37,212 nucleotides of DNA from Limnochordia bacterium (GTDB taxonomy: Bacteria; Bacillota; Limnochordia; Darwinibacteriales; DTU012): NCBI GenBank assembly GCA_007116145.1, contig SKJB01000036.1:1-37212 (forward strand), given 5' to 3'. Shown in pieces: positions 15,520 to 33,568 of the stretch (its first letter is position 1; every line of letters starts with the position of its first letter). Made by a program: the position numbers and the translations under genes. The notes below the pieces were generated by a model. The model saw only the letters and a program-made list of their open reading frames with translations, was not told where the DNA came from and made no database searches.

Positions 15520-15531
15520 CTTGAGTTAACT

Positions 15532-15561
15532 ACCCTGGGCGATAGTATATATCGCCCGGGT
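15532..15561 (+). promoter_or_regulatory. intercistronic hairpin after the binding-protein gene
   Basis: ACCC + GGGCGATA (15532-15544, one bulged T) pairs with TATCGCCC + GGGT (15550-15561) around a 5-nt loop. It lacks a T-run and lies inside an operon, so it probably protects or attenuates the transcript to set binding protein above ATPase and permease. It covers the GTG at 15560, arguing against that codon as the ATPase start. Confidence 0.55.
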
Positions 15562-15586
15562 GACTTGTCAGGAGATGATCCACAAC

Positions 15587-16453
15587 GTGAGTAAAGCAAT
15601 TGAGCTGAGAAACGCTATTGAGGTAACGAATCTTTGGAAAATATTTACCAGTAATGCAGATCAAGTTGATCTGACAAAAGAGAAGGAACTGCAGGCGTTA
15701 GAAGACTCAGACGAAGATACCCTGGCTGTACGAGATACAACCTTTTCCGTCCGAAAAGGGGAAGTTTTTGTTGTCATGGGACTTTCTGGCAGTGGGAAAT
15801 CAACGCTTATTCGCTGTCTACTACGACTAACTGAACCCACGTCGGGCACCATTAATATTAATGGCAAGGACGTCTGCAACCTTAATACGAAGCAGCTGAC
15901 GGAGTTTCGACGCAAAGAGGCGGCCATGGTATTTCAACACTATGGTCTGTTACCGCATCGTAGTGTATTGGACAATGTGGCCTTTGGCTTAAAATTGCAG
16001 AGCATAGCGAAAGAAGAACGCTATGAACGAGCGATGCACTGGATCGAGCGCGTCGGGTTGACAGGATTTGAGAACTATTATCCCGCGCATCTAAGTGGTG
16101 GTATGCAACAGCGTGTTGGGATAGCCCGAGCCCTAGTTTGTAATCCTCCGGTGCTCCTTATGGATGAGCCCTTTAGCGGACTAGACCCACTAATCAGGCG
16201 GGATATGCAAGATGAGTTGAGTGAAATTCAAGCTAGCCTGAAGACCACCATCTTTTTTGTCACCCATGATTTAGATGAAGGTATGCGATTAGGCGATCGT
16301 ATGGCCGTGATGCGCAAAGGGCAATTTGTTCAGGTGGGTACCCCAGATGAGATACTAGCTGATCCGGCTGATGAGTATGTTGCTAGATTTGTTCAAGACA
16401 AGCGCATCCGACTTGAAAAAGCAAATATGAAAAAGACTGAGGCGAGTGCGTAG
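15587..16453 (+). CDS. glycine betaine/proline-type ABC transporter ATP-binding protein
   Basis: About 288 residues from the GTG at 15587 (AGGAG 12 bases upstream); an in-frame GTG at 15560 lies inside a hairpin and is less likely. All ABC motifs are present in order: Walker A GLSGSGKST, Q-loop VFQHYGLLPHRS, signature LSGGMQQR, Walker B VLLMDEPFSGLDP and switch histidine FVTHDLDE. The N-terminal extension and the RRKEAAMVFQHYGL segment are as in OpuAA/ProV. The tail (~20 residues) is shorter than the tandem CBS region of full-length OpuAA/ProV, so ionic-strength sensing through CBS domains is probably absent here. It energises import with the permease that follows. Confidence 0.88.
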   Translation: MSKAIELRNAIEVTNLWKIFTSNADQVDLTKEKELQALEDSDEDTLAVRDTTFSVRKGEVFVVMGLSGSGKSTLIRCLLRLTEPTSGTININGKDVCNLNTKQLTEFRRKEAAMVFQHYGLLPHRSVLDNVAFGLKLQSIAKEERYERAMHWIERVGLTGFENYYPAHLSGGMQQRVGIARALVCNPPVLLMDEPFSGLDPLIRRDMQDELSEIQASLKTTIFFVTHDLDEGMRLGDRMAVMRKGQFVQVGTPDEILADPADEYVARFVQDKRIRLEKANMKKTEASA

Positions 16454-16505
16454 ACGCTGTAGGCTGTTCTATGCAGTCTCGTCCAAGGTAGGAGAGTGAT
16501 GTTTT

Positions 16506-17357
16506 TTGTTTCCAGAGAGATGGGAGTACCACGTTGCTGAACCCATAAACGATGTCATAAATTGGATGCTAAACTCATTTCAGGGGTTTTTCGACGGTAT
16601 TTCCTCCACAATTTTAACACTATTGCTTTTTTTAAACGATGTGCTAACAGCACTACCATGGTGGATGTATATCTTGATCGTCTGTGTGCTTGCCTGGTTT
16701 ACGACGAAAAGCATTCTCACGACGATAGTTCTCATGTTGTTGCCTTTTATTATAGGTATATTTGGACTCTGGCAGCTTGCGGTGGTCACTTTGTCGGTCA
16801 TTTTGACAGCGGTGGTTGTATCAATCGTTATAGGGGTTCCAGTGGGAGTGTTGATGGCCGAATCAGATTTTGTGGCCGATATCGTTAGACCGTTGCTTGA
16901 TTTAATGCAGACTATGCCAAGTTTCGTATATCTGATTCCCGCGCTTATGTTCTTTGGGCTTGGCCGCGTGCCAGCTGTACTAGCTACTATTGTGTATAGC
17001 TTGCCGCCTGTAATTCGTTTGACCAATTTAGGTTTGCGACAAGTGTCGGACGACGTGCAGGAGGCAGCGCTTTCCTATGGAGCCACGCGCTGGCAGCTAT
17101 TGAAAGAGGTTCGTGTACCGTTGGCCATTCCTTCGATTTTGGCCGGCGTAAATCAGACAACCATGATGGCCTTAGCTATGGTTGTAATCGCTTCGATGAT
17201 CGGTGGTGGCGGCTTGGGATATGAAGTGCTGCGCTCGATTAACCGGATTGATGTAGGCGCTGGTTTCGAAGCAGGAATAAGTGTCGTAATCTTAGCCGTG
17301 ATCATTGACCGACTTACACAAGGCTTAGCCAAACGTTGGGAGCCACCAACTGTCTAA
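16506..17357 (+). CDS. glycine betaine/proline-type ABC transporter permease
   Basis: 283 residues with about six to seven membrane spans. The coupling-helix motif EAALSYGATRWQLLKEVRVP is clear, as are TMPSFVYLIPALMFFGLGRVPA and VIASMIGGGGLGYEVLRSI, all typical of ProW/OpuAB. The start is a TTG at 16506 supported by TAGGAGAG nine bases upstream; the nearby ATG at 16499 is out of frame. With the preceding ATPase and binding protein it completes a three-component importer. Confidence 0.88.
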   Translation: MFPERWEYHVAEPINDVINWMLNSFQGFFDGISSTILTLLLFLNDVLTALPWWMYILIVCVLAWFTTKSILTTIVLMLLPFIIGIFGLWQLAVVTLSVILTAVVVSIVIGVPVGVLMAESDFVADIVRPLLDLMQTMPSFVYLIPALMFFGLGRVPAVLATIVYSLPPVIRLTNLGLRQVSDDVQEAALSYGATRWQLLKEVRVPLAIPSILAGVNQTTMMALAMVVIASMIGGGGLGYEVLRSINRIDVGAGFEAGISVVILAVIIDRLTQGLAKRWEPPTV

Positions 17358-17432
17358 ACGCTGACAACCAAAGCTTGAGTTAATCGGTTACCTCCTACTC
17401 GATCTACGAAAGATAGTGAAAGGAGTGCAACA

Positions 17433-18305
17433 ATGCAGAGAAGGAATGAACTAGTGAAAAGCAAGGCCAATACTGTATTGACCCTTGAAGAAGCCATGAG
17501 GAAGCCGTGCAAACATCGGGATATGGAGATGGCGCTGCAACCCATGGACAATTATAGCAGTACTCCTGGCGGACCAAACGACACACCTTTGGCATTTTGG
17601 GCATCTTGGAACTTGGCCGATCGCCCGAGACGGATTGCTTTGCTGCTGGATGACTGTCAGGAGGAGTATCGACCGTATGCAGGAGAAATCCTGCCGAATC
17701 TTGTCAGGCTAGTTGATACCTTTCGGTCAGTCCGCTCGAAGCATGCAGGAGTCTGTATTGCATGGAGCGTCTGGAGTCGGCTGTTTGACGACGGTATTTC
17801 AAATGCCATGGATCGCTGGTATGGACCACGAGGACTTCGTCCGGATTACCCGGAGAATGCGGCCTACGTTTTCACCGGTAAAGCCGGGCTCCAACCACTC
17901 TCGGAGATAGCACCAGACGATGAAGAGGTATTGGATGGCTGGTTCTACCACGGGAAACACCTCGATATGTTTTGGACCTTCAACGATGACGGAAGTTCCT
18001 ATCTTGATGAAAAACTAAAAGCCCTCGATATTGATACGATTGTTATTTCTGGCCTGTGGACGGATGAGTGTGTTCTTGCTACTGCCTATGCTGGTAACGC
18101 TCGCGGGTACGATGTCGTGGTAGTCGGTGACGCTGTCGCAACAGCAACGGCCAATCAAGCTACAGCACTAGCTGTGGCTAACAGCACTGTCGCGAAGGTT
18201 CTTTCAACAGACGATGTCATCGGTTACATGCAAAACGATTTGGTCATAGGAGAACCAGGTGCAGTAAAGGGCACGCATCATCCAGATGGGCGCAAGCGTG
18301 GGTGA
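17433..18305 (+). CDS. isochorismatase-fold cysteine hydrolase
   Basis: 290 residues, last gene of the betaine transporter operon, 75 bases after the permease and with AAGGAG seven bases before the ATG. The Asp-Lys-Cys triad of the isochorismatase-like superfamily is visible: D73/D74 in IALLLDDCQEEY, K175 in FYHGKHLDMFW, and C213 in ISGLWTDECVLATAYAGNARGY. The family contains nicotinamidases, N-carbamoylsarcosine amidase, isochorismatases and many amide or imine hydrolases, so the reaction is not fixed. There is a ~60-residue N-terminal extension before the core. Its position suggests that it acts on the compound the transporter imports, for example an amide or N-substituted amine; this is inference. 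A strong terminator follows. Confidence 0.75.
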   Translation: MQRRNELVKSKANTVLTLEEAMRKPCKHRDMEMALQPMDNYSSTPGGPNDTPLAFWASWNLADRPRRIALLLDDCQEEYRPYAGEILPNLVRLVDTFRSVRSKHAGVCIAWSVWSRLFDDGISNAMDRWYGPRGLRPDYPENAAYVFTGKAGLQPLSEIAPDDEEVLDGWFYHGKHLDMFWTFNDDGSSYLDEKLKALDIDTIVISGLWTDECVLATAYAGNARGYDVVVVGDAVATATANQATALAVANSTVAKVLSTDDVIGYMQNDLVIGEPGAVKGTHHPDGRKRG

Positions 18306-19484: not shown

Positions 19485-21512
19485 ATGTCTACTGGAAGAA
19501 AGGCAATTTTGCTTGGTGTAGCAGTAGTGTTAGTGGCGGGACTATTAATAGCAGGGATTAGACTAAGGAGCGATGTCCAGGAGCCTTTAGCTGACATATA
19601 CTTGCAATTAGTTTTTCCAGCGGACAATCGGATTAACTTAGCAACGATAACCATGTTAGGGGATACAAGTGAAGATGGTGAAGTTGAACGCGTTATTATA
19701 ATAACTCCAGGTAAAACTGAAATTCTTCCTTTCAAGCAAATAAATGCTGGAGTTTGGCCTGTACAAGTTCAATTGTACGATGAAGTTGGTGGTCTCATCC
19801 GTTCTGGTGAAGCAGAGATTTCTGTAGCAGCTGGGTCAATAAGCACCGCTCATGTGGTTTTTCTAGATCAAGACCCAGAGCTGAAGGTGAATGTATATAC
19901 GGTTCGGCTGCCGCAAGAGCCACAAAATGTCACAGCAATGTATGAGGATGGTGTGGTTGTCATTGGATGGGATGAAGTAGAAGGGGCTGTAGGATATCGG
20001 GTGTGGTGTAGTTACAGTGAGAATTGGACTGGTGTTTTTCTTAATGACAAATTAATCCTTGCTACTCGTGCTATGGATGAAACAGGCTTGAGATGTGGGT
20101 GGGGCACAACTTATTACTACCGGGTGGTGGCGTATGATGAGAATGATTTAGCTAGTCATCCTAGTGAGGCAGCTTCCATTACACTTGATGTTGAATCCGC
20201 TGAAGGTTGGGGTGACCCAACGGTTTATCGGCAAACACTTTATTCCATGGATTTTGAATTACTATATTTTATCGATACGGACATTAATTTTCTTATGATG
20301 AAAGGCATTGGACAACGATCAAAGGGACGAGAGTATTATGTTGATCCGCATACGAAAGGTTATGAGACTCGATTTTATTTGGCTGACGATAAGTATACGA
20401 TTGATCGCATAACACTTATCAGTAAAGAGGAAGGCTTTGTGGGAAGTGGGAGTTTTATGGGTTTGTATCTTGGCATGGCTATGGAGGATGCTAAAGATTA
20501 TCTGCAGACAGAATCGCTAAGTTACAATGGAGAACTAAAGGTGAATTACCTGGACAGGTATGCAAATGGTAGAATTGATCAAATTGATGTTATCTCCCTG
20601 CAGGTGCAGGAAAAAAGAGTCAATCGGGAAGATTTCTATTTCAAGTTTTTTGACATGGATATACATGAACAAGTTCATCATATCGGGGATGGCACCGGAG
20701 CCCCAACAACACTAGACATTGACCCGGAAAATCGAACATATACCTATACCATAACCTATGGGGACGATGTCTACCAGAAGGTTTATGCGTATAATGAAGA
20801 CGATGCCATCATAAGTATGGAAATTCGCTCAATGCAACCTGATTTTATTGCCGTTGTTCCTAGTTTGTTTGGGATTCCGTTAGGAAGCCAAAAAGTGGAT
20901 ATACCGCAGATGGTAAGCGCTGCAGATAAGACGATTCATGCAAGCTATTCCAAAGAAACTCTCGATAGCGATTACGCGGTAAAAGTGTATACAGTCATAG
21001 ATAATCCCTCAAAGATTGTCTATACCGCTGTGGTTTATACCGACAGGGATCATCATTCTGTGCAGAAGATCAAGGGATACATGAAGGAGAGAACAGTTGT
21101 AAGTCATGATCATCTATCGCTTTTAGTAGGTGAGGAACTAGGTGGAAGTGCTCAAAGAGTCGAGGGAACAGGAAGCGAGAAATGGGAGGTAAGGTTTGAA
21201 GCTTATCATGATTTAATCATTCGCTCTGTTTCGTTATATAAGCGCGCGGACAGCATTTTTATTGATACAGTACCATCTTTATACGGGCTTCAACTTAATA
21301 TGTTTGCAATGAGTGCTCCAAGTATACTACAGAGGAATGGGTTTACTATCATCAATGAAAAACGCTATTGGCCATTTGTAGATCAAAACCTAGGAACGGT
21401 TGCGTATACAGTGGTTCACCCTGAGACAAATAGAGAGTCTCGTGTATATATCAATACACAACAAATTCCTGAGATTTCTGCAGCTATTGTTTTTGCAATC
21501 TCGATAAATTAA
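19485..21512 (+). CDS. membrane-anchored or secreted protein with fibronectin type III domain
   Basis: 675 residues, not a recognised family as a whole. Residues ~6-25 form a hydrophobic signal/anchor (AILLGVAVVLVAGLLIAGI) with no lipobox. Residues ~30-130 look like a beta-sandwich (PGKTEILPF, GVWPVQVQLYDE). Residues ~140-235 match FN3: PQNVTAMYEDGVVVIGWDEV, GYRVWCSY, YYYRVVAYDEND, LASHPSEAASITLDV. The rest (~235-675) is beta-rich and contains two related-looking segments with VVPSLFGIPLGSQ and TVPSLYGLQLNM, suggesting an internal duplication, and several positions reminiscent of the FxGIxLG(M/D) motif of repeated domains tracking small changes. It has its own strong promoter and GGGAGA ribosome-binding site. 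A role at the cell surface is inferred only from the anchor and FN3 domain. Confidence 0.65.
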   Translation: MSTGRKAILLGVAVVLVAGLLIAGIRLRSDVQEPLADIYLQLVFPADNRINLATITMLGDTSEDGEVERVIIITPGKTEILPFKQINAGVWPVQVQLYDEVGGLIRSGEAEISVAAGSISTAHVVFLDQDPELKVNVYTVRLPQEPQNVTAMYEDGVVVIGWDEVEGAVGYRVWCSYSENWTGVFLNDKLILATRAMDETGLRCGWGTTYYYRVVAYDENDLASHPSEAASITLDVESAEGWGDPTVYRQTLYSMDFELLYFIDTDINFLMMKGIGQRSKGREYYVDPHTKGYETRFYLADDKYTIDRITLISKEEGFVGSGSFMGLYLGMAMEDAKDYLQTESLSYNGELKVNYLDRYANGRIDQIDVISLQVQEKRVNREDFYFKFFDMDIHEQVHHIGDGTGAPTTLDIDPENRTYTYTITYGDDVYQKVYAYNEDDAIISMEIRSMQPDFIAVVPSLFGIPLGSQKVDIPQMVSAADKTIHASYSKETLDSDYAVKVYTVIDNPSKIVYTAVVYTDRDHHSVQKIKGYMKERTVVSHDHLSLLVGEELGGSAQRVEGTGSEKWEVRFEAYHDLIIRSVSLYKRADSIFIDTVPSLYGLQLNMFAMSAPSILQRNGFTIINEKRYWPFVDQNLGTVAYTVVHPETNRESRVYINTQQIPEISAAIVFAISIN

Positions 21513-21864
21513 ATCCCAATTTCTAAGACGGCAAAGGGAGCCAGAGCAGCCTCTATTAGGACTATGAAGCGTACAGGAAGGTGCGATGCTAGGGGTGTAA
21601 GCACTCTCTTTACATATGGTATGAATTATGGTAAGTTTTAACTGAATACTTTTAGAATACGATCCGCTAAAGTAAGTGGACAAGGGATGGAGGAGTGAGA
21701 CGATAGTGATGTACCAAGCCTTATGATGCTTGTTTAAAGAGATATTTCTAAATACGAAATGTAAGCATATTGTGAAGAACCCAGTAGCAGAAATGTTTGA
21801 AACTATCGACATAAGTATGGTACGTTTTTCTGGTAGGATAAAAAGTGCGAAAAGGTGTGAACAC
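21513..21864. other. intergenic region before the racemase operon
   Basis: About 350 bases without a supported gene. An open frame from 21730 runs into the racemase gene, but its first 45 codons do not look like that family and the good ribosome-binding site (AAAGGTGT) is at the ATG at 21865. No clear promoter or terminator was recognised. Confidence 0.5.
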
Positions 21865-22563
21865 ATGAAAATAGCAGCTATATATACAGGAGTAAGCCCT
21901 TCTTTAATGTCTATAGTAAATAAGGAGTTGTCACTGCAAGTTCCTGGACATAGTGTTATGACTTTTGGTGATCCTTCACTACTTAGCGAAATAATAGATA
22001 CTGGTTATATCACTGTAGGAGTAAGGCGTAAGCTTTTGGGAATGTATTTTCATGCTGTCAATTGCGGAGCAGAAATAATTTATAATATTTGTTCATCCGT
22101 TGGGGAAATTGCCGACGAAGCTCAACATATCTTCAGTTTGATGGATGTCTCTATTGTAAGAATAGATGAGTTGATGGCAGTAAACGCAGTGCAGGCAGGG
22201 AAGACTTTGGGAGTGATTGCAACTCTACCTAGTACACTTAGGCCTACAAAATGTCTTCTGAAGAAAACAGCGCAAAATCATAATTTAAATATCAATATTG
22301 TTGATGCATTGATCGATGGTGGATACCAGCTGCCGCAACAAGAAATGAATAAAGCGATTATAGATAAAGCAATTCAAATAGCACCTTCCGTTGATGCTGT
22401 TGTGTTAGCCCAGGCTTCAATGGCTCTGTGCGAAGAAGAGTTACGTGATAAGTGTTATAAACCAGTCTTTTCCAGTCCACGTTTTGGGGCATTTGATATA
22501 AAAAATATTATAGATAATGCTAACAATATAAACAAGGAGAAAGCTAATGACTATAAAGGGTGA
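21865..22563 (+). CDS. aspartate/glutamate racemase-family protein
   Basis: 232 residues from the ATG at 21865. The fold is that of the Asp/Glu/hydantoin racemase family (PF01177 type): N-terminal MKIAAIYTGVSPSL, a first active-site Cys at C76 in IIYNICSSVGE, TLGVIATLPSTL near 114-125, and VVLAQASMALCEE near 180-190. The second catalytic cysteine expected in two-base racemases is replaced by Ala-Ser in LAQASM. Members with this LAQ(G/A)SM motif exist, and single-Cys members can act as decarboxylases or isomerases, so racemisation is not assured. It is the first gene of a five-gene run; the transketolase start lies 17 bases inside its end, so the two are coupled. Confidence 0.75.
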   Translation: MKIAAIYTGVSPSLMSIVNKELSLQVPGHSVMTFGDPSLLSEIIDTGYITVGVRRKLLGMYFHAVNCGAEIIYNICSSVGEIADEAQHIFSLMDVSIVRIDELMAVNAVQAGKTLGVIATLPSTLRPTKCLLKKTAQNHNLNINIVDALIDGGYQLPQQEMNKAIIDKAIQIAPSVDAVVLAQASMALCEEELRDKCYKPVFSSPRFGAFDIKNIIDNANNINKEKANDYKG

Positions 22564-23374
22564 TAATCTCAGTAAAATAGCTGATGAATTGAGAAAAGAT
22601 GTTATGAAAATGGTACATAATGCTGGTGACGGTCATCCTGGTCCGTCACTTTCAATCGTTGAAATCATTGTTGCATTATATTTTAATATAATGAATATAA
22701 ATCCTCAGTTTGCTCTTTGGGAGGAAAGAGATAGATTGATCCTTTCAAAAGGTCATGCTTGTCCTGTGCTTTACTCTGCTCTCGCAAGAAAAGGTTACTT
22801 TGACCTAGAGAAGCTCCATTCACTAAGAAAGTATGGAAGCATATTACAAGGCCACCCAGACATGAAAGTGACACCGGGTATTGATTTTACCTCTGGCTCA
22901 TTGGGTAACGGTATATCCATAGGTCTTGGCATGGCAGTTGCAGCTAAGTTAAAAGGACACAATAATTATGTGTACGTGATTACCGGCGATGGAGAACTGC
23001 AAGAGGGGATAATCTGGGAAGCAGCGATGGCAGCAACAAAGTTCCAGGCAGATAACCTTATTGTTTTTGTTGATTTCAACAAGCTACAAAGTGGGGGTAC
23101 GGTTGAGGAAATTAGTGCGTTGAATCCCTTGCTGCCAAAGTGGAAATCGTTTGGATGGCATTGTCAAGAGGTAGACGGGCATGATACTGCACTGCTTATC
23201 GATGCAGTGTCAAGGGCCAAAACAGTCAAGGATCAACCTTCTGTTATAATTTGCCATACCATTAAAGGAAAAGGTATTTCGTTTATGGAAGGAGACAACT
23301 CATGGCACAAAAGAGTTCCTTCTGATTTGGAACTGAAAAAGGCGATTGAATTGCTAGGAGGTGAAGATAAATGA
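22547..23374 (+). CDS. transketolase, N-terminal (TPP-binding) subunit
   Basis: 275 residues: the pyrophosphate-binding half of a split transketolase. Seen: AGDGHPGPSLSIVEI, the SKGHACPVLYSALA region (H70), GSLGNGISIGLGMA, and the TPP/Mg motif GDGELQEG (147-154) with FVDFNKLQ (N178) about 30 residues on. The C-terminus has VIICHTIKGKGISFMEGDNSWH. The enzyme transfers two-carbon ketol units between phosphosugars. RBS AAGGAG precedes the ATG, which lies inside the racemase gene. The stop overlaps the start of the C-terminal subunit by four bases. Split transketolases are often found in dedicated sugar catabolic operons, fitting the sulfatase and DUF1593 neighbours. Confidence 0.9.
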   Translation: MTIKGDNLSKIADELRKDVMKMVHNAGDGHPGPSLSIVEIIVALYFNIMNINPQFALWEERDRLILSKGHACPVLYSALARKGYFDLEKLHSLRKYGSILQGHPDMKVTPGIDFTSGSLGNGISIGLGMAVAAKLKGHNNYVYVITGDGELQEGIIWEAAMAATKFQADNLIVFVDFNKLQSGGTVEEISALNPLLPKWKSFGWHCQEVDGHDTALLIDAVSRAKTVKDQPSVIICHTIKGKGISFMEGDNSWHKRVPSDLELKKAIELLGGEDK

Positions 23375-24348
23375 ATGAAGAAATTAGAAGCACAAGAGAA
23401 GCATTTATCACAGCTATGCTTGAACTCGCGGAAGAAAGTAGTAAGTACTTATTAGTATGTGCTGACTCTTTACTTGCTATGAGGGCATCAGCGTATAAAT
23501 TACAATACCCTGACAGAGTGTTCGATGTAGGAATAGCAGAGCAAAATGCCGTTGGATTTTCAGCAGGGCTTGCGAGCTCAGGTTTTATTCCTTTTGTTGG
23601 CACTTATGCAGGTTTCATCACAATGAGAGCATGCGAACAGGTGAGGACATTTGTTGCCTACCCAGGCTTAAATGTAAAATTGATAGGTATAAATGGTGGT
23701 GTTTTTGGTGGTGAAAGAGAAGGGGTTACCCATCAGTTTTTTGAAGATATTGGCATTTTAAGAAGTATGCCTGGTATTACAATTGTTACGCCAGCAGATG
23801 CCGCACAGACCTATAAGGCAACCAAAGAGATTTCTGTATATGATGGTCCTATTTACATGAGGTTAGGAAGCGGACGTGAATACAGTGTTTTTAGTGAGGA
23901 TGACAGCTTTCATATCGGGAAAATTAGAGTTATTAAACAGTATGGCAATGATGTTTCAATATTTGCTAGTGGGTTTGTACTAAAGAGAGTCCTTGATACG
24001 GTAGAGGTTTTAAAATCACAAAATATAAATGCTACAGTTGTTGAAGTGCATACATTAAAACCTGTTGATGCAGAATCGATCGCTAGTATTCTTGCGTTAA
24101 CAGGCTGTGCAGTTACAGTTGAAGATCATAATATCATAGGCGGACTAGGAAGCGTCATATCAGAGGTTTCCGTAGAACATGTACCAGTTCCTCTCGTAAG
24201 ATTGGGGATACAGGATGTGTTTCCTCAATCGGGTGAGGCAAAGCAATTACTTGACAATTATGGTATGAGCTCAGAAGATATAATTAATGCAGTAAAGAAG
24301 GCTATGATTAAAAAAGAAAGATTACAGAAAGAATCTATAAGGAGATGA
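23371..24348 (+). CDS. transketolase, C-terminal subunit
   Basis: 325 residues: pyrimidine-binding and C-terminal domains. The catalytic Glu is in FDVGIAEQNAVGFSAGLASS; FVGTYAGFITMRACEQVR, GGVFGGEREGVTHQFFEDIG and MPGITIVTPADAAQ are family blocks. The last domain carries VEVHTLKPVDAESI and VTVEDHNIIGGLGS. It pairs with the preceding subunit to form an active heterotetramer. ATGA overlap with its partner; the next gene begins seven bases after its stop. Confidence 0.9.
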   Translation: MNEEIRSTREAFITAMLELAEESSKYLLVCADSLLAMRASAYKLQYPDRVFDVGIAEQNAVGFSAGLASSGFIPFVGTYAGFITMRACEQVRTFVAYPGLNVKLIGINGGVFGGEREGVTHQFFEDIGILRSMPGITIVTPADAAQTYKATKEISVYDGPIYMRLGSGREYSVFSEDDSFHIGKIRVIKQYGNDVSIFASGFVLKRVLDTVEVLKSQNINATVVEVHTLKPVDAESIASILALTGCAVTVEDHNIIGGLGSVISEVSVEHVPVPLVRLGIQDVFPQSGEAKQLLDNYGMSSEDIINAVKKAMIKKERLQKESIRR

Positions 24349-24354
24349 GATAAC

Positions 24355-25809
24355 ATGGAATTTTTGTCAAAGGGTAAGCCTGAAGATAGACACAGACTAA
24401 TAATATTAACTGATATGGAGAATGAACCTGACGACTCACAAACGATGGTAAAATTACTAATGTATTCAAACGAAATTGATATTGAAGGTTTGATTGCTGT
24501 AACCTCAAGGCACCTGCCTCAATTAGTATTTCCAGAGAGTATTGTAGACCGTGTAAAAGCGTTTGGTGTTGTAAGAAAAAATCTCCTAAAGCATGCTACG
24601 GGGTGGCCAACTGAGGAGTATCTACTTGAAAGAACCGCAGAAGGCCAGCGTGGATACGGCATGGAAGCTGTAGGAAAAGGAATGTCAACGGCTGGTTCGG
24701 AGCTTATTATTCAAGTGGTGGATAAAGATGATGATCGTCCTGTCTGGTTTGCAATCAATGCAGGTGGGAATACATTAGCTCAGGCTATTTGGGATGTTAG
24801 AGAAAGCAGAACACCAGAAGAATTCGAACGATTTCTATCCAAAATCAGGGTGTATGACGACTCAGGTCAAGATAATGCTGGAGCTTGGATGTGCCATGAA
24901 TTTCCATCTCTCTTTTATATCCGAAGCCAAAATCAGGTTTTTGGACTTTTCGGCCCAAAAGAGAAATTAGGTCCACAACCCTGGCTACCACTGGATCAAT
25001 ATGATTGGGCAGAACTTAATGTAAGAACCAGGCATGGTGTGTTAGGAGCTTTATATCCTCAAAGAATGATTAAAGATGGTAGCTTTCACTTTATCGAAGG
25101 TGGAGGCACAACTTCATGGCTTGGTCTTGTAAATAAAGGGCTTTTTGAGCCTGAACAGATAACCTGGGGCGGCTGGGGCGGTCGTTTTTCGTGGGAGAAG
25201 GAAGAGGTAGCAGCAGGGCAATCCACAGTTGATAAGCTTGAACCACCCTACAGCCCGTTTTTGATGTATCCACAGGCATCTGATTTTTCCTTTGTTTGGG
25301 AAGAAACCGATGAATGGAAAGCGTATTCGAGTAAAAAGAAAAACAAGGAAGATTGGCACATGTATGCTCCTCTCTGGAGATGGCGGGAAGCTTATACAAA
25401 TGACTTTAAAGCACGCATGGACTGGTGTGTATGTGACTATCTTCATGCAAACCATAATCCAGTTATTAATCTATTCGGAGATGAAAACCGCACAATCGCT
25501 TTTTTCTCGGTTGAAAAAGGGGAAGAAGTACAACTAGATGCATCAAAATCATGGGATCCGGATAACAGAATACGGTATTATTCAACGACTCCTCCTGAGA
25601 GTTTGTTGTTTCACTGGTTCTTGTATCCCGAGGCAGGAACCTACGATGGAACTATTGCAATTAGCGGAGAAAGAGAATCCATATCATCGATAAAAATTCC
25701 CGATGATGCTAGTGGCAAACAGATACATGTCATTTTAGAAGTTAAGGATCAGGATTCAGATGCTCCTCTTACTTCATATCGACGAATTGTCATGGATGTC
25801 AAGAAGTAA
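24355..25809 (+). CDS. DUF1593 protein: nucleoside-hydrolase-like domain with Sde0182-type C-terminus
   Basis: 484 residues. The N-terminal domain (about 14-290) starts RLIILTDMENEPDDSQTMVK, the DUF1593 form of the nucleoside-hydrolase metal-binding motif. It continues with FAINAGGNTLAQAIWDVR, which corresponds to the next conserved strand, and ends with WGGWGGRF. The C-terminal ~150 residues (DASKSWDPDNRIRYYST, LLFHWFLYPEAGTY) form a beta-sandwich like that in the Saccharophagus Sde_0182 protein. Many relatives are secreted cellulose-associated proteins; this one has no signal peptide and should be cytoplasmic. The enzyme activity of the family is not established; hydrolysis of an N- or O-glycosidic bond is plausible. 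RBS AAGGAG is 11 bases before the ATG. Confidence 0.8.
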   Translation: MEFLSKGKPEDRHRLIILTDMENEPDDSQTMVKLLMYSNEIDIEGLIAVTSRHLPQLVFPESIVDRVKAFGVVRKNLLKHATGWPTEEYLLERTAEGQRGYGMEAVGKGMSTAGSELIIQVVDKDDDRPVWFAINAGGNTLAQAIWDVRESRTPEEFERFLSKIRVYDDSGQDNAGAWMCHEFPSLFYIRSQNQVFGLFGPKEKLGPQPWLPLDQYDWAELNVRTRHGVLGALYPQRMIKDGSFHFIEGGGTTSWLGLVNKGLFEPEQITWGGWGGRFSWEKEEVAAGQSTVDKLEPPYSPFLMYPQASDFSFVWEETDEWKAYSSKKKNKEDWHMYAPLWRWREAYTNDFKARMDWCVCDYLHANHNPVINLFGDENRTIAFFSVEKGEEVQLDASKSWDPDNRIRYYSTTPPESLLFHWFLYPEAGTYDGTIAISGERESISSIKIPDDASGKQIHVILEVKDQDSDAPLTSYRRIVMDVKK

Positions 25810-25913
25810 TCTACCCTTACTCCGGTTTGATTTTTAATCATTTTAACCCTGCAAGGCTTGATAAATCCTTTGTGCATTAGACATTATCCAAAATAAAACG
25901 GGGGTAACTAGAA

Positions 25914-27437
25914 ATGGAAAGACCGAATATTTTGTTGGTATTTACGGACCAACAGCGTTTTGACACCATTGAAGCATTAGGTAATCCAGTTATAAAGACG
26001 CCAGTCTTAAATAAACTTGTAGAAAATGGAATAACATTTACAAGGGCATATACGCCCTGTCCAGTATGTGCACCTGCAAGATATTCAATGCATACAGGAC
26101 AGATGCCGCATAGAACAGATTTATTTGAGAATGGTCGTATGCCAGAAGGTAGAAAGAGTTTTATGGAAGTTCTTAAGGAAAATGGCTATCAGACTTTTGG
26201 TGCAGGAAAAATGCATTTTAGCTTTGAAACGGGAAAAAGTACAATGTGGGGTTTTGATCAAAGAGCAGTGTGCGACGAGAACGAAAGGTTAGAAAAGAAC
26301 GAGTTTTATCAAAATTGCAAAGATAACGGATATGATCATGTGTATGATTATAAAGGCGTAAGAGGTGAAATGTACTATATTCCGCAGGTATCTCAATTGC
26401 CAGAGAGACTGCATCATTCAGCGTGGACTGCAGATTCAACCATTAAGTTTCTTAAAGGAAGAGAGGAAGACAAACCATTTTTTGCAATGACCTCATTTGA
26501 AAAGCCACATCCTCCGTTTGAACCGCCTGTACCTTGGAACAAGTTATATCGTGGACCTAATATGCCGCTCCCTAAAAGACCCGAAAAACCGGAAGCGATG
26601 CAGACCTTGTGGAATCAGTTCCAAAACAGATATAAGTATCGAGATCAAGGAATGGATGATAACTTGATCCGCCAAATGAAAGCTTATTATTATGCTGAAA
26701 TATCATTTGTAGATTACAATCTAGGAAGATTGTTAAAGTATATGGAAGAAGACAATATTTTAGATAATACGCTTATTATTTACACCTCAGACCACGGAGA
26801 GATGCTTGGGGATTATAACTGTTTTGGGAAACGATGCTTTCTAGACTCAGCAGCGAGGATTCCTATGATTCTACAATATCCTGGCTGCGAGGAGAACAAG
26901 AAATGTAATACACCAGTGTCGTTGATAGATATTATGCCAACGTTCTTAGAGTTTGCTGGTATTCCTGCTGAGGAAGATTATTCAGGAGTAAGCTTATTGA
27001 AAATTCTTGATGGTACCAGTAATAGAGATATGATTATTGGGCAGTATGAGCAAGAAGGATATGCTTCGTATATGGCACTAAATGAAGAATACAAGTATAT
27101 TTATTCTGCGCCAGACAATAAAGAATTCCTTTTTGATCTTACTATCGATCCAGAAGAAACAAGGAATAAGGCATATAGTCCGTTGTACTTTGAAAAGACA
27201 AAGGAAATGAGAGATCAACTTATTAACTATTTCAAGCAAGAAGGGTATATGACACCAATTGAAGAGAATGATTGGAAGAAGTTTCCAATTAAAGAAATGC
27301 CAGATGACCCCGATGCATATCTGCTGTTTCAAGATCACGAAAGCAGCATTCCACATATCCCTGGGTATGAAACAGATGCTAATTCTAAAAAGTTTTTTAA
27401 ATTTGCATGGTATGATAAGCTGTATCATAAAGTATAG
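25914..27437 (+). CDS. type I sulfatase (Cys-type), cytoplasmic
   Basis: 507 residues of the alkaline-phosphatase-fold sulfatase family. The modification motif CAPAR (C52-R56, within PVCAPARYSMHTGQ) fits C-x-P-x-R, so C52 must be converted to formylglycine. Metal and sulfate ligands are seen in NILLVFTDQQRFD, FEKPHPPFEPP and YTSDHGEMLGDYN; the C-terminus has FLFDLTIDPEETRN. There is no signal peptide, so it acts on imported sulfated molecules rather than on polymer outside. It is the last gene of the racemase-transketolase-DUF1593 run, 104 bases after DUF1593, with a GGGGG-containing RBS. Overall form resembles choline-sulfatase or glycan sulfatases; the substrate is unknown. A terminator lies 125 bases downstream. 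Confidence 0.88.
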   Translation: MERPNILLVFTDQQRFDTIEALGNPVIKTPVLNKLVENGITFTRAYTPCPVCAPARYSMHTGQMPHRTDLFENGRMPEGRKSFMEVLKENGYQTFGAGKMHFSFETGKSTMWGFDQRAVCDENERLEKNEFYQNCKDNGYDHVYDYKGVRGEMYYIPQVSQLPERLHHSAWTADSTIKFLKGREEDKPFFAMTSFEKPHPPFEPPVPWNKLYRGPNMPLPKRPEKPEAMQTLWNQFQNRYKYRDQGMDDNLIRQMKAYYYAEISFVDYNLGRLLKYMEEDNILDNTLIIYTSDHGEMLGDYNCFGKRCFLDSAARIPMILQYPGCEENKKCNTPVSLIDIMPTFLEFAGIPAEEDYSGVSLLKILDGTSNRDMIIGQYEQEGYASYMALNEEYKYIYSAPDNKEFLFDLTIDPEETRNKAYSPLYFEKTKEMRDQLINYFKQEGYMTPIEENDWKKFPIKEMPDDPDAYLLFQDHESSIPHIPGYETDANSKKFFKFAWYDKLYHKV

Positions 27438-27494
27438 CCTACGAGCCTGTTCAGAAGAGTGCTTCAGACGCATTTTCGACCCGAGTGTGTGTTA

Positions 27495-27524
27495 CTTCGA
27501 TGACTTTTCGAGTTTACTTCTAGC
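27495..27524. repeat. 30-bp dispersed repeat, copy 2
   Basis: Matches 14376-14405 at 29 of 30 positions in the same orientation; flanking sequence differs. Confidence 0.7.
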
Positions 27525-27561
27525 AAGGATGTATACGTTTCTACCAAATTCGTTACAAAGA

Positions 27562-27611
27562 TAGGACTAAGCAAACACATGCGCTGTTTTTGCTTAGTCC
27601 TACTTTTATTG
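27562..27611 (+). terminator. intrinsic terminator of the sulfatase operon
   Basis: TAGGACTAAGCAAA (27562-27575) and TTTGCTTAGTCCTA (27589-27602) form a perfect 14-bp stem with a 13-nt loop, followed by CTTTTATTG. Confidence 0.75.
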
Positions 27612-27700
27612 TAGTGGGCCAAGGAAAAGGAAAGATCACGGAATCTCTAGCGTTCCTAAGCAGGTGGTTGATTCTCAAAGAATCTACGTACAATCTCTTA

Positions 27701-27729
27701 TTGACATCGGGATGGTTAGCTGATATAGT
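27701..27729 (+). promoter_or_regulatory. promoter of the NAS/FeoA-feoB operon
   Basis: TTGACA (27701-27706), 17-base spacer, TATAGT (27724-27729). This is the best promoter between the terminator and the gene start and gives a leader of about 155 bases. Confidence 0.7.
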
Positions 27730-27744
27730 TGGCATGGGACAATT

Positions 27745-27763
27745 GACAATGATTTTCATTCCC
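27745..27763. promoter_or_regulatory. candidate Fur box
   Basis: GACAATGATTTTCATTCCC matches the classical 19-base Fur consensus (GATAATGATAATCATTATC) at 14 of 19 positions, with the core dyad AATGA-TTT-TCATT intact. It begins about 15 bases after the -10 element, so a bound repressor would block early transcription. The match was found by eye, and the local regulator's true consensus is unknown. Confidence 0.5.
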
Positions 27764-27890
27764 TGCGGCGACTCCTCAGGTCGATGAAGCGCCTATACGG
27801 GGAAGCTGTTTCATCTCGTAGTTTGATAACATGTCCTACGGTTTGATGGTGGTCAACGGTCCTCACACACTTTTGAAGGAAGGTGTTTAT

Positions 27891-28769
27891 GTGATATCGA
27901 CACAAATCTCAATGAAAAAACCGAGAACGTTTAAGTGCCGGATAACTGCCCTTTTGCTAAATGCAGTTAAAGGAATAGAAGAGTTAGGCGCACAGTGTAT
28001 TCCTTTAGGCCGAATCCACACCTCTATGTTTTATCGGAAAATGATTGCTAAAGAAATCCTACTTGCGGGGTTAGAGCCTGGTATGCGCATACTCCATATT
28101 GGCAGTGGTCGGTTACCAATGACGGCAATATCCCTGGCGGAAAGGGGTTTTACTGTCGACGCCATGGATAATGATTCCAGATCCGTTGAACTGTCTAAAA
28201 GGGTAATTAGCAAATTGGGCTACGAAGGTCAAGTTACGGTTCTGCTTGGCGACGGGTGTCATGTCGACTGTTCGGAATACGATGCGGTCCTGTTGTCACT
28301 CCACATTATGCCCAAGGAAGAGGTCATAGGTCAAGTGTTACAGAGTCTAAAAAAGGAAGGACGGCTGGTGTATCGCAATCCCCGAGGATTGTTTAACTAT
28401 TTCTATGCTAGAGTGTACCCTAGAGACTTAGCCAACCAATACTCGTATCGCACTACGGACCAATCTCTAGGCAAAGAAACTGTTGTAATACATAACATGC
28501 ACAGTACATCGAGCACTGTTTCTCTGAGTTCGATGGTTGTGGGAAACTCCGGTACAATACTATCTGCTGCGCCAATATCCCAGGCTACATCTATGGGGAT
28601 TCGTCCTGGAAAACAGGTGACTGTTCAAGCGATTCAACACTTTGGGGGTCCATATATTGTAGCTATTGATAATCGCTCTGTGGCTGTACCCCGTTCGTTA
28701 GCCGCCAAAATTCAAATAGGTAAGTTAGGTGATTCCCATGAGACAGAGTGCATTACAGCATCCAGCTAA
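27891..28769 (+). CDS. nicotianamine-synthase/CntL-like domain fused to FeoA
   Basis: 292 residues from the GTG at 27891, which has AAGGTG five bases upstream; an in-frame start at 27831 has no such site. Residues ~40-170 form a SAM-binding domain. Its first motif, RILHIGSGRLPMTAISLAER, is the GSG-x-(L/F)-P-(M/L)-T form seen in nicotianamine synthases and staphylopine-pathway CntL, not the usual methyltransferase G-x-G-x-G. DAMDNDSRSVELSKRVI, YDAVLLSLHIMPKEEVI and GRLVYRNPRG complete it. These enzymes transfer an aminobutyrate group from S-adenosylmethionine. Residues ~210-277 (SLSSMVVGNSGTILSA, ATSMGIRPGKQVTVQAI, VAVPRSLAAKIQIG) are an SH3-like FeoA domain. The stop lies 32 bases inside feoB, so the two products are coupled. 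The enzymatic product is unknown. Confidence 0.7.
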   Translation: MISTQISMKKPRTFKCRITALLLNAVKGIEELGAQCIPLGRIHTSMFYRKMIAKEILLAGLEPGMRILHIGSGRLPMTAISLAERGFTVDAMDNDSRSVELSKRVISKLGYEGQVTVLLGDGCHVDCSEYDAVLLSLHIMPKEEVIGQVLQSLKKEGRLVYRNPRGLFNYFYARVYPRDLANQYSYRTTDQSLGKETVVIHNMHSTSSTVSLSSMVVGNSGTILSAAPISQATSMGIRPGKQVTVQAIQHFGGPYIVAIDNRSVAVPRSLAAKIQIGKLGDSHETECITASS

Positions 28770-30474
28770 ACCCACAATTTTGCTAATTGGACCTCCGAAC
28801 GTTGGCAAAAGCGCCCTATTTAATCAATTGACTTCCATGAATGTTAGTGTTGGTAACTATGCTGGCACTACTGTGGAATTCTCGGCTTGTGACATTAACT
28901 TGCACGGCAATACTGTCAAGCTGATTGACGTCCCAGGGACATACACTCTCCACTCTGCTAATGAAGCAGAAAAAGTCGCTGTCGATATGCTCAATCAGAA
29001 GCCAGACGCAGTAGTAGTTACTCTAGATGCCAACAGCTTGGAGCCGAGCTTATATTTGCTATTACAGATTCTTGCCTATCAGATCCCTACTATGGCAGTG
29101 ATCAATCGATGGGATCTAGCTGAGAAAAGAGGTGTATCCTTTGATCTAGACGGTTTTTCTCAGGAACTTGGCATATCGGTAGTTCCTACTGTGGCCATAG
29201 AGGGGGAAGGTCTCGGTGAGTTAAGAGAAAAATTATCTGGGATGTTAACAGCCCCTAACCCACACAAATTGGCACACGAGTTGACATCAGAAGCAAGATG
29301 GATAATGGTAGATGATTTATTAGCGCGGTATGTATCATCCCAACCGAGTATCGCTACAGGAGAGTCCTGGGGTGCTAAGCTTGTGAATCCCTGGCCCGGT
29401 ATTCCTCTCGCTATGCTTATTGTCAGTGCAGTGTTTGCTGTGGTTATCGGACTAGGAATGGGTCTACGGAACTTTCTTCTCTTACCCTTGTTTAGGGGTG
29501 TCTTAATTCCTATTGTGGTCGGAATGATCGAAGCATTGACACCAACAGGCCTATTGCAGAGAGTTCTTATTGGCGAGTATGGTTTCTTAATTAAGGGAAT
29601 TGAATGGCCATTTACTCTCGTGCTGCCTTACGTATTCTCGTTTTATCTAGCTTTGAGTTTTTTGGAAGATACGGGGTATTTGCCAAGACTCGGTGTCCTA
29701 CTTGATGGTCTATTACAAAAAATTGGTCTGCAGGGATCGAGTGTGATTCCTTTGTTGCTCGGATATGGATGTGGTATTCCAGGGATTCTAGCAACTCGTT
29801 CTTTTGGTTCACATAAAGAGCGCTTATCTGTTTCTTTATTAATCTGCCTTGCTGTCCCATGTATCTCACAGACTGGAGCCTTTATCTCCTTGCTAGCTGC
29901 ACATTCTTTTTTACTAATTATTGCAACGTTTGGGGTATCTGTGATGGCACTAATTGTTGCTGGCTTGATTCTAGATAAAGTATTAGTAGAGAAGAAGGTG
30001 TTTTCCTTGATGGAGATTCCCGATCTTCTTTGGCCGAAACCACGCATAATTGCAAAAAAAGTGTGGAACAGGCTACGTAACTACGTATTTGATGGAGCTC
30101 TACCCATGTTTTGGGCGATAGCTGCAGCAGCTGTGCTTTATGAAAGTGGTATCATGGCGGTATGGGGGAATCTGATTAGTCCGATTGTCATTGGTTGGTT
30201 ACGCTTGCCAGAAGCGGCATCTGTTCCACTAGTATTAGGCATTCTTCGACGAGAACTCACTGTTTTGCCGTTGATTGATATGGATCTCACGTCACTCCAG
30301 CTCTTCACGGGTGCTGTAGTTGGTCTATTCTATGTGCCGTGCATTGCGATGGTGGGGACACTAAGCCGCGAGTTCAAGCTGCCAACTGCTCTTGCGATTC
30401 TTGGAACAACCACGTTTGTGGCAATTTTTGTCGGAGGTATTGTGGCTAGAGTAGGCGTTCTGCTACATTTTTAG
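28738..30474 (+). CDS. feoB: variant ferrous iron/divalent metal transporter FeoB
   Basis: 578 residues from the ATG at 28738 (AGGTGAT four bases upstream; GTG at 28729 is an alternative). The N-terminal G domain has G1 GPPNVGKS (18-25), NYAGTTVEF, G3 DVPGTY and G4 as INRWD. After the G domain come about eight to ten membrane spans. Differences from classical FeoB: it is shorter (E. coli protein ~770); G4 has INRWD where N-x-x-D usually reads NMxD; and the first gate motif reads GYGCGIPG instead of GFGCNVPA. The second gate block GLFYVPCIAMVGTL keeps the Cys-Pro pair. It overlaps the NAS/FeoA fusion gene, so both belong to one metal-uptake unit. Metal specificity may not be plain Fe(II). Confidence 0.85.
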   Translation: MRQSALQHPAKPTILLIGPPNVGKSALFNQLTSMNVSVGNYAGTTVEFSACDINLHGNTVKLIDVPGTYTLHSANEAEKVAVDMLNQKPDAVVVTLDANSLEPSLYLLLQILAYQIPTMAVINRWDLAEKRGVSFDLDGFSQELGISVVPTVAIEGEGLGELREKLSGMLTAPNPHKLAHELTSEARWIMVDDLLARYVSSQPSIATGESWGAKLVNPWPGIPLAMLIVSAVFAVVIGLGMGLRNFLLLPLFRGVLIPIVVGMIEALTPTGLLQRVLIGEYGFLIKGIEWPFTLVLPYVFSFYLALSFLEDTGYLPRLGVLLDGLLQKIGLQGSSVIPLLLGYGCGIPGILATRSFGSHKERLSVSLLICLAVPCISQTGAFISLLAAHSFLLIIATFGVSVMALIVAGLILDKVLVEKKVFSLMEIPDLLWPKPRIIAKKVWNRLRNYVFDGALPMFWAIAAAAVLYESGIMAVWGNLISPIVIGWLRLPEAASVPLVLGILRRELTVLPLIDMDLTSLQLFTGAVVGLFYVPCIAMVGTLSREFKLPTALAILGTTTFVAIFVGGIVARVGVLLHF

Positions 30475-30655: not shown

Positions 30656-30723
30656 AGTAGATGGTGGTCGCGGAGCCTGCGAGTTGAACAAATAATTGCT
30701 GTATGAAAGAAAGGAATGAAAAA

Positions 30724-32013
30724 ATGTCAAAGACGAAATTGGAAATAAAAGGAAAGCAGTTCTATATTAATGGTAAACTTACATATTCCACTATAGAGAA
30801 TAGTAATCCTGAAGTTCACGGTCTTTTAATGAATGCTCGTTTTATCCAGGGTATATTTGATGATAAGGAAGATAGGACTAGATTTAACCGGTTTGGAAGA
30901 ACGTTTGATCCAGATAAGAATACAGATGACCTGATTAAAGCTTTACCAGAGTGGTATAATTATGGTCTTCGGGCGTTTACTGTTGGTTTCCAAGGGGGAG
31001 GCCCATGTTTTACCATGGGTGGTAAAGAGAGATCGACGATTGATAATAATCCTTTTAGCAGTGATGGTACGGAAATTGATCCAGATTATCTAAAGAGAAT
31101 GGATAGGCTGATAAGAGCAGCTGACGATCTAGGAATGGTAGTAATAGTCTCTTATTTCTATTGGTCCCAAACCACCCCGCGCTTGAAAACGGGAAACGCG
31201 ATTGTTAATGCTGTGAAAGCAGCGTCAAATTTCCTGCGAGATAATGCTTATACAAATGTGATTATAGAGATTGCTAACGAGCATAACGTTAGCCCCTTTG
31301 GCGAACACGATCTTATTAGAACAGCACAGGGCATAAGTCTCTTAATGGATATTGCGAGAAAAGAATCGGGTGGTTTACCTGTAGGCTCAAGTGGTAGCGG
31401 CGGTTATATTAATCAAGAAGAGGCTGCAGCTAGTGATGTTGTCATTATTCATTCTAACAAACAGACCCGTCAAGGATATTATAATATGATCAAGCAGGTT
31501 CGGGAGTGGGAACCCAACAAACCAATAGTTTCTAATGAAGATTCCCAGGCAATTGGTCAATTGAAAGTGGCATACCAGTCCAGAACTTCATGGGGTTATT
31601 ACAATAATATGACTAAACAGGAACCGCCGGTTGATTGGAGTATAACCGAAGGTGAAGACAGATTTTTTGCTTATAGGATGGCGCAGGGTATCGGATTAGA
31701 GGTGCCTGTTTTACCAGAAGAAGAACAATTTCATTTACATGGTTTTGAAAAAGATATAGAGATCGAAGGGAAGCGTTGGATAAGGTTAGCCAGTCTTTAT
31801 CCAGAGACAATAGACTTTGTTGAGTTTTACAGGGATAATGAACTTGAATATGTTAGTTATGATGAATCATTTTCTGTTAATTTCAAAGGTAACTGGTCTC
31901 AGGGTCCCAGTAGAGTTAATGAGGGTGAGAAGTGGAAAGCTGTTATTCATCGCACAAATGGAGAGATTATCGTTAAAGAAAAGACAGTGCCCAAGGTTTC
32001 CACAGACGCCTAG
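30724..32013 (+). CDS. clan-A-like glycoside hydrolase (GH5-like), copy 1
   Basis: 429 residues from the ATG at 30724 (AAAGGA eight bases upstream), matching the start of its paralog; the ATG at 30703 adds seven codons without homology. The sequence has a TIM-barrel layout with ITKE-type landmarks: a conserved front block (HGLLMNARFIQGIFDD, NRFGRTFDP, GLRAFTVGFQGGGPCFT), then DLGMVVIVSYFYW. The candidate acid/base E186 is in IEIANEHN (strand 4 Asn-Glu) and the candidate nucleophile E272 in PIVSNEDSQA (strand 7). A beta-sandwich-like tail follows (~330-425). There is no signal peptide, so it is intracellular. The assignment to GH5 or another clan-A family is not certain, and the substrate is unknown. 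Confidence 0.7.
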   Translation: MSKTKLEIKGKQFYINGKLTYSTIENSNPEVHGLLMNARFIQGIFDDKEDRTRFNRFGRTFDPDKNTDDLIKALPEWYNYGLRAFTVGFQGGGPCFTMGGKERSTIDNNPFSSDGTEIDPDYLKRMDRLIRAADDLGMVVIVSYFYWSQTTPRLKTGNAIVNAVKAASNFLRDNAYTNVIIEIANEHNVSPFGEHDLIRTAQGISLLMDIARKESGGLPVGSSGSGGYINQEEAAASDVVIIHSNKQTRQGYYNMIKQVREWEPNKPIVSNEDSQAIGQLKVAYQSRTSWGYYNNMTKQEPPVDWSITEGEDRFFAYRMAQGIGLEVPVLPEEEQFHLHGFEKDIEIEGKRWIRLASLYPETIDFVEFYRDNELEYVSYDESFSVNFKGNWSQGPSRVNEGEKWKAVIHRTNGEIIVKEKTVPKVSTDA

Positions 32014-32053
32014 CTATAAACGAGTAATGGATAAAAATGATAAATCTATGTTA

Positions 32054-32123
32054 GGAGGGTTTGGTCCTCTAGCGGCTTCTAGATTGCTTTAGTCGTTAGT
32101 GGACTCCCTCCCTTTTTTTTTTT
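32054..32123 (+). terminator. intrinsic terminator between the two GH genes
   Basis: GGAGGG (32054-32059) pairs with CCCTCC (32106-32111), with additional GGTCC/GGAC and CTAGCG/CGTTAG pairing inside, followed by 11 T residues (32113-32123). The two GH genes are therefore probably separate transcripts. Confidence 0.7.
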
Positions 32124-32326
32124 GCCATACTAACACCTGTTTGGGATTGACGGCTGAGGATCCCGATTATTTTTGTTTTAAATAAAATATTGAATACAAA
32201 AAAAGATAATAGTAGCAGGATTTTCCGTGCTCCTACGAGAATATATAGGTATGGTGAGTGTCAGTTACATTCAATAGACAGCTATCCATTTTTCGATGGG
32301 GTTATGAAAAAAAGGAGGACTTTTAA

Positions 32327-33568
32327 GTGGGAAAAACAGTACTTACGGTTCAGGGTGAGGATTTTTACATTAACGGACAGAAAATCTATGCAGACATACC
32401 AGGTAGCAAACCAGAAGCACATGGTTTACTGATGAATGCTCGTTTTATTCAAGGTATTTATGATGACAAATTGAATCCAGAGCGATTCAATCGCTTCGGA
32501 CGAAGCTTTGATCCTGATACGAACACAGATGATCTTATTTCAGCTTTACCTCAATGGTATAGCTATGGATTACGAGCATTTACCGTGGGGATTCAGGGCG
32601 GCGGAGCTTGTTTTACTATCATGAATACTACAGTTGAGAATAATCCATTTGGGGCAGATGGAAAACAAATTGATCCCGATTATCTTGATAGGCTAGATCG
32701 ACTAATTACTGCCGCCGATGAGCTAGGTATGGTTGTAATCGTTAGCTACTTCTATCCTTTTCAAGTACAACGAATTAAAGATGGGCGTTCAGTAGCGAAT
32801 GCAGTTCGTACCGCGTCTCGGTTCTTAAAACAAAAAGGGTATACCAACGTCATTATTGAGATTTGTAACGAAATGAATGGAGCGAAGTCCCACTCAATCA
32901 TTCAGCAGCCTGAAGGCATGGCCGTTTTGATTGAGCTAGCCAGAGAAGAATCAGGGGGCATGCTGGTAGGATGCAGTCCTACAGGTGGTATTTCCTATCC
33001 TGAAGTTAGTGAGGCAAGCGATGTTATTCTCATTCATGGAAATAAATGTAGTCGGCAAAACTACTATAACTTAATTGCTACTGTTAGAAGTGAGAGTCCA
33101 GGAAAACCTGTTGTGTCTAATGAAGACTCACAGGCAATTGGGCAACTTAAGGTAGCGTATGAAACCCACACTTCATGGGGTTACTATAATAATAGTACGA
33201 AGCAAGAGCCCCCTACAGATTGGTCCATTACTAGAGGCGAGGATCAATTTTTTGCCTGGCGTATGGCTGAAGGTATAGGGATAGATGTACCAGCAATTCC
33301 AGAAGAAGAACAGTATTATCTCCAAGGATTAGAGCCGAATAATACCTATGAAGGCAACCGGTGGCTCCGATTAGCGAGCCTATATCCAGAGAGTATTGAT
33401 CATGTCAAGTTCTACTGTAATGATAGCCACGTCTATACTTGTTATGATGAACCGTTCTCTATGGATTTCATATCCAATTGGCGTCAGGGTCCACAACGCG
33501 TTGAGCCAGACGATATATGGAAGGCTGTTATCTATCTCCGTGATGGTCGAGTGATTGAACGTTCTTAA
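32327..33568 (+). CDS. clan-A-like glycoside hydrolase (GH5-like), copy 2
   Basis: 413 residues; GTG start with AAAGGAGG seven bases upstream. It is a tandem paralog of the preceding gene: the blocks HGLLMNARFIQGI, NRFGR-FDPD-NTDDLI-ALP, YGLRAFTVG-QGGG-CFT, IDPDYL, LGMVVIVSYFY and SNEDSQAIGQLKVAY are shared and well over half of all positions look identical. The catalytic pair is retained (E182 in IEICNEMN, E266 in VVSNEDSQ). Differences concentrate after strand 3 (YPFQVQRIKDGR versus YWSQTTPRLKTG) and after the acid/base, where substrate loops usually lie, so the copies may recognise different glycosides. No signal peptide. Confidence 0.7.
   Translation: MGKTVLTVQGEDFYINGQKIYADIPGSKPEAHGLLMNARFIQGIYDDKLNPERFNRFGRSFDPDTNTDDLISALPQWYSYGLRAFTVGIQGGGACFTIMNTTVENNPFGADGKQIDPDYLDRLDRLITAADELGMVVIVSYFYPFQVQRIKDGRSVANAVRTASRFLKQKGYTNVIIEICNEMNGAKSHSIIQQPEGMAVLIELAREESGGMLVGCSPTGGISYPEVSEASDVILIHGNKCSRQNYYNLIATVRSESPGKPVVSNEDSQAIGQLKVAYETHTSWGYYNNSTKQEPPTDWSITRGEDQFFAWRMAEGIGIDVPAIPEEEQYYLQGLEPNNTYEGNRWLRLASLYPESIDHVKFYCNDSHVYTCYDEPFSMDFISNWRQGPQRVEPDDIWKAVIYLRDGRVIERS

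Follow-up and report, generated by a model that had tools for sequence, protein, structure and literature searches.

A racemase-fold protein and a split transketolase form the stable core of a putative sugar-acid operon in a Limnochordia bacterium

The 37,212 nt stretch of DNA analyzed here (the window), from the genome of a Limnochordia bacterium (G000; 2.76 Mb in 164 contigs), carries a five-gene cluster whose stable core is smaller than the five genes, and consists only of a racemase-fold protein (RAC) and the two halves (TKN and TKC) of a split transketolase of the RAC-linked type (TK1). The likely role of the cluster is to channel an unusual branched sugar acid, possibly a sulfated one, into central metabolism, and the chances are about even that RAC and TK1 together break down an acid sugar, perhaps a branched one, as judged from fold, clades and gene neighborhoods. 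That the operon degrades an unusual sugar derivative had been suggested in the original prediction, and this part, taken as a statement about a catabolic operon, is well supported.

All five genes lie on the + strand. RAC (21865..22563) overlaps TKN (22547..23374) by 17 bases and TKN overlaps TKC (23371..24348) by 4 bases; a DUF1593/Sde182 nucleoside-hydrolase-like protein (24355..25809) follows after a 6-base gap, and an S1-type sulfatase (25914..27437) after a gap of 104 bases (25810..25913) that contains no +-strand terminator-like site. Open reading frames and Pfam matches confirmed this layout, which had been predicted with overlapping or nearly abutting first four genes and the 104-base gap before the sulfatase. 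The transketolase is split over two adjacent open frames, with the TPP-binding N-terminal half in TKN (Transketolase_N, 194.8 bits) and the pyrimidine-binding and C-terminal half in TKC (Transket_pyr, 100.3 bits; Transketolase_C, 92.3 bits). The DUF1593 protein belongs to its family by matches to Sde182_NH-like (PF07632, 261.6 bits) and Sde0182_C (PF21027, 70.6 bits), and carries TDMENEPDD as an NH-like acidic motif; it is a putative cytoplasmic furanosidase. The sulfatase (Sulfatase, 188 bits) has the C-x-[PA]-x-R formylglycine motif of the S1 type as CAPAR at residue 52, and 13 FGE-domain matches in G000 are all candidates for the formylglycine-generating enzyme. No evident signal peptide was seen by eye in either the sulfatase or the DUF1593 protein.

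Co-transcription of the five genes is plausible; the one +-strand terminator-like site in 21400–28000 lies inside TKC, and such sites were at chance level. An Rfam scan of the window gave no match. Elsewhere in the window, a glycine-betaine/choline-type ABC importer (OpuAC, ProV, ProW) followed by an isochorismatase-family protein occupies 14518–18305; a nicotianamine-synthase/methyltransferase-like part fused to a FeoA domain overlaps a FeoB gene at 27831–30474, possibly a metallophore-linked iron importer; and two GH5-like proteins lie at 30703–33568, the second having a 94% identical relative on another contig (C9, L201) near another sulfatase relative.

The structure model of RAC (pLDDT 96.6) aligned with 3s81 at a Z score of 20.8 and an rmsd of 2.7 over 211 aligned positions, which bears out the prediction of a racemase-like protein, and its score for Asp_Glu_race (PF01177), 27.9 bits, lies under the gathering cut-off of 31. 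Cys76 is kept in 97 of 99 RAC relatives, and the position of the second catalytic Cys, assigned via profile alignment with 3qvj, is Gln in 99 of 99 (Gln183). Thus, RAC shares the fold and the first catalytic Cys of the Asp/Glu/hydantoin racemase superfamily, but differs from it in the Gln at the second position and in the sub-threshold Pfam score. By its predicted structure and aligned residues, RAC is a racemase-fold protein lacking one defining residue of the two-cysteine racemases, and it seems to be an enzyme of the aspartate-racemase fold with a newly acquired job. A decarboxylase role like that of arylmalonate decarboxylase is thought unlikely, because the DUF1537 kinase, RuBisCO-like protein (RLP) and BKACE that accompany RAC relatives would need the carboxylate. 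Other RAC subfamilies are found with an FGGY kinase and a class II aldolase, or near mtnK/mtnA, so that substrates vary across the family. The first arrangement (L038–L041, L-numbers denoting loci) represents another acid-sugar pathway, some of its operons also encoding a DUF1537-type kinase and a class II aldolase/adducin-like protein. Plasmid-borne RACs belong to a distant subfamily with different neighbors and are uninformative for the window operon.

Six of the nine family genomes contain RAC relatives, as do 20 of 72 genomes of the class (E 1e-15) and 13 of 398 in a phylum sample (E 1e-50); the viral contigs searched contained none, and an initial scan of the genome collection with the single RAC protein as query returned no relative. 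All six RACs of the family lie with transketolase halves. Across the 72 class genomes, a profile of RAC-linked TKN matched seven at 464–520 bits, the next match scoring 403, and RAC accompanies the TK1-type transketolase in all seven; TKN is on the RAC contig in six of them, and in the seventh, G001 from a second genus, the pair is divided over two contig ends. The G001 assembly is 87% complete, and its unit TKN–TKC–RAC–sulfatase is compact across the contig break, with TKC adjoining RAC and TKN ending the other contig, and is flanked by genes for an enoyl-CoA hydratase (upstream) and a glycerol-3-phosphate-dehydrogenase-like protein (downstream). Outside the class, RAC and TK1 occur together at four loci, a spirochaete included (L052, L053, L085 and L185). 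The TK1 halves form one clade with support of 100/100 in both half-trees. The trees were built from related sequences, so that counts are not independent events; two duplicates were removed from the RAC tree (L080 of L034 and L112 of L036), and L185 and the loci from the same later phylum search stand outside the trees.

Several of these neighborhoods hold further genes. A pyruvate-formate-lyase-like glycyl radical enzyme lies upstream of the RAC–TK1 genes at L034 (1005–3116). At L010 (5812–19293), a FucI-like gene, RAC and TK1, a transaldolase-like gene, a GH43-like gene and a second, AptAB-side split transketolase form one run, perhaps bringing two branched-sugar pathways together; the corresponding run at L009 includes a small cupin. 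A second split transketolase is also present in G000 (contig 135; L194, 337–10135), with a xylose-isomerase-like protein, carbamoyl-phosphate synthase genes and a pyruvate-formate-lyase-like protein as neighbors.

The five genes had been expected to be conserved together, and this does not hold. The RAC clade, supported by an SH-aLRT of 98 in a quick tree, comprises 48 loci; in two of them, the window counted, a sulfatase lies within 5 kb of RAC, and in one, the window itself, a DUF1593 gene does. DUF1593 as a conserved part of the operon is therefore unsupported; it was not found in the 87% complete G001, neither it nor a sulfatase lies beside RAC in eight new loci from the phylum search, and our literature search found no DUF1593 papers. 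The predicted sulfated substrate remains plausible, since the sulfatase adjoins RAC in a second genus too; for a C–C or C–N linked sugar, also predicted, nothing was found in support, and the relatives point to branched acid sugars. Three further close sulfatase relatives were detected, two in G000 (53% and 54% identity, one partial) and one in G001.

The partners of the RAC relatives narrow down the likely chemistry. Of the 48 loci, 10 have TK1 within 6 kb of RAC and 29 have at least one of RLP, DUF1537 kinase and BKACE; nine, several of them near contig ends, have neither, and no locus combines the two. Pfam matches of selected examples served to name RLP, DUF1537 kinase, BKACE, FGGY kinase and GH127, and BLAST extended these assignments. 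In place of TK1 stand either RLP with a DUF1537 kinase, or BKACE with or without that kinase, and these partners and TK1 may each process the same product in a different way. The choice between them is not absolute, as a DUF1537-type kinase with the same orientation lies ~9 kb downstream at L009. A D-apionate route with the DUF1537 kinase OiaK and a RuBisCO-like protein was reportedly described by Carter in 2018. RAC relatives resemble it in directly adjoining RLP and a DUF1537 kinase, whereas the window has TK1 in that place, with RLP and DUF1537 kinase absent from the five operon genes and the scanned neighboring proteins. According to PMC6302742, the substrate of the RLPs in the apiose work is 3-oxo-isoapionate-4-phosphate. 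Within 5 kb of RAC, the clade also has GH127 genes (8/48, at least 35% identity), a possible GH127 relative termed c12GH (12/48) and TRAP genes (8/48). The original prediction suggested looking for a dedicated importer in conserved neighbors; relatives show TRAP importers, and the window operon itself encodes no importer and no TRAP gene. c12GH may be related to GH127, at an hhalign probability of 53, a weak match, with a c12GH model pLDDT of 59, and its sequence search of the PDB gave no match.

The GH127 neighbors may link the RAC clade to aceric acid. The eight RAC-linked GH127s group into one clade that excludes 12 other GH127s of the class; these were found by profile and are not RAC-linked, although some of their genomes (G006 among them) have RAC elsewhere. 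All three RAC-linked GH127s tested had 5mqo, titled Glycoside hydrolase BT_1003, as best PDB match (531, 561 and 728 bits vs. 325, 311 and 378 for the next), whereas one control GH127 from a genome without RAC matched arabinofuranosidase best (909) and 5mqo last (396). BT1003 is the aceric acid (3-C-carboxy-5-deoxy-L-xylose) hydrolase of RG-II depolymerization, according to PMC5698469 and PMC10850190. A BT_1003-type GH127 (~770 bits or more) was found in 14 of 41 RAC-clade genomes searched and, among genomes with other RACs, in one of 37 (752 bits) plus one partial match, both belonging to planctomycete loci with RLP and DUF1537. Such GH127s neighbor RAC relatives in several phyla; none was found in G000 or G001, nor was c12GH in G000 (a search without a positive control), so the argument for aceric acid comes from the relatives. 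Aceric acid as a general substrate of the RAC clade is possible but doubtful, and for the window operon it is less likely still. The literature searched, which mostly did not extend to subscription papers, yielded no description of bacterial use of released aceric acid.

From the observed gene content, fold, clades, RAC–TK1 linkage and partners, we infer a route whose reactions, their sequence and the substrate are all conditional. The cytoplasmic sulfatase would remove a sulfate ester and, in G000, a furanosidic bond might be hydrolyzed by the DUF1593 protein; the sulfatase, with DUF1593 as a possible furanosidase, is the likely supply step of the window because no such GH127 or c12GH was found in G000 and the operon has no TRAP gene. 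The acid sugar released in this way, a 2-C-branched tetruronic acid that is akin to aceric acid and carries an aldehyde, would then be isomerized by RAC, giving a 2-hydroxy-3-oxo-4-hydroxy acid. TK1 would transfer the CH2OH-CO unit of this product to an aldose phosphate, leaving a 2-oxo acid, which in the case of aceric acid would be 3-hydroxy-2-oxobutanoate. The DUF1537 kinases are presumably of the oxo-tetronate and oxo-isoapionate kind, demanding a 3-oxo acid with a terminal hydroxyl. The common demand of the partners would then be a ketol at one end for the transketolase, a terminal-hydroxyl 3-oxo acid for DUF1537 and a beta-keto acid for RLP and BKACE. Shifting the aldehyde of aceric acid to C2 would yield 2-(1-hydroxyethyl)-3-oxo-tetronate, which would satisfy this demand, and RAC is the best candidate for the isomerization because it is the only enzyme common to all variants. 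We propose, slightly more tentatively than the link to aceric acid itself, that RAC, as an aldose-ketose isomerase, takes the missing first step in breaking down L-aceric acid and likewise branched tetruronic acids that are sulfated or related to it; its 2-C-branched 3-oxo-tetronate product would meet non-homologous fates, namely DUF1537 kinase and RLP, BKACE with or without kinase, or a dedicated split transketolase cleaving the 3-C-carboxy ketose to a 2-oxo acid, and the window would be the variant fed by the sulfatase and the DUF1593 hydrolase.

RAC might instead be an acid-sugar epimerase or racemase, another enzyme isomerizing and TK1 using the corrected stereoisomer. This would fit the racemase fold, and a xylose-isomerase-like protein is extra in the operons of L053 and L185 and also lies beside other RACs at L188 and L189. 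The extra protein in the former two speaks for a second isomerization or a different role for RAC, so RAC may not be the aldose-ketose isomerase. However, all the relatives have Gln where two-base racemases have their second catalytic Cys, and the smallest sets (L009, L034 and G001) have no other isomerase between RAC and TK1 among the genes compared. We regard an epimerase or racemase as unlikely, though a serious competitor to RAC as isomerase. Less probable still is that the operon handles a plain sulfated sugar of algal or plant polysaccharides, which sulfatase and DUF1593 prepare, RAC and transketolase being general helpers. One sulfatase paralogue in G000 does adjoin a GH106-like protein, a GH43 protein and an AraC regulator, and the tree-nearest RAC (L051) adjoins GH88; yet RAC and TK1 stay together without a sulfatase in 8 of 10 TK1 tree loci and in L185, which argues that they are a unit with its own job.

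Likewise improbable, and slightly the weakest reading, is a D-apiose/D-apionate pathway, with an AptAB-like transketolase acting on apulose-4-phosphate or RAC making 3-oxo-isoapionate. Identity to E. coli AptA and AptB is 41% and 34%, respectively, for the two TK halves; at L008, L010 and L011, RAC is preceded by a FucI-like gene and followed in the same run by another split transketolase, and relatives carry RLP and DUF1537. The D-apiose pathway (AptAB, AplK) is also alike in its split transketolase beside sugar-catabolic genes and in branched-chain sugar chemistry. Nevertheless, TK1 is a clade separate from the AptA/AptB side in both half-trees (the AptA and AptB branches being long), so that TK1 was rejected as the AptAB apulose-4-phosphate transketolase; AptAB-like and TK1 transketolases coexist in L008–L011, and there is no FGGY kinase among the scanned neighbors of the window and no kinase in its operon. 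The E. coli SE15 cluster, whose apt genes were identified via locus tags in PMC13001218 and the sequence record, differs further in having no annotated racemase-family gene.

Collectively, RAC and TK1 as a branched acid-sugar pathway would make the operon a new variant of branched and acid-sugar catabolism, in which the function of RAC would itself be novel once demonstrated. The gene links name candidate enzymes for the use of aceric acid, an odd sugar of pectin RG-II; they also suggest that the Asp/Glu-racemase fold may catalyze a reaction new to it and that a transketolase may act on a branched acid ketose.
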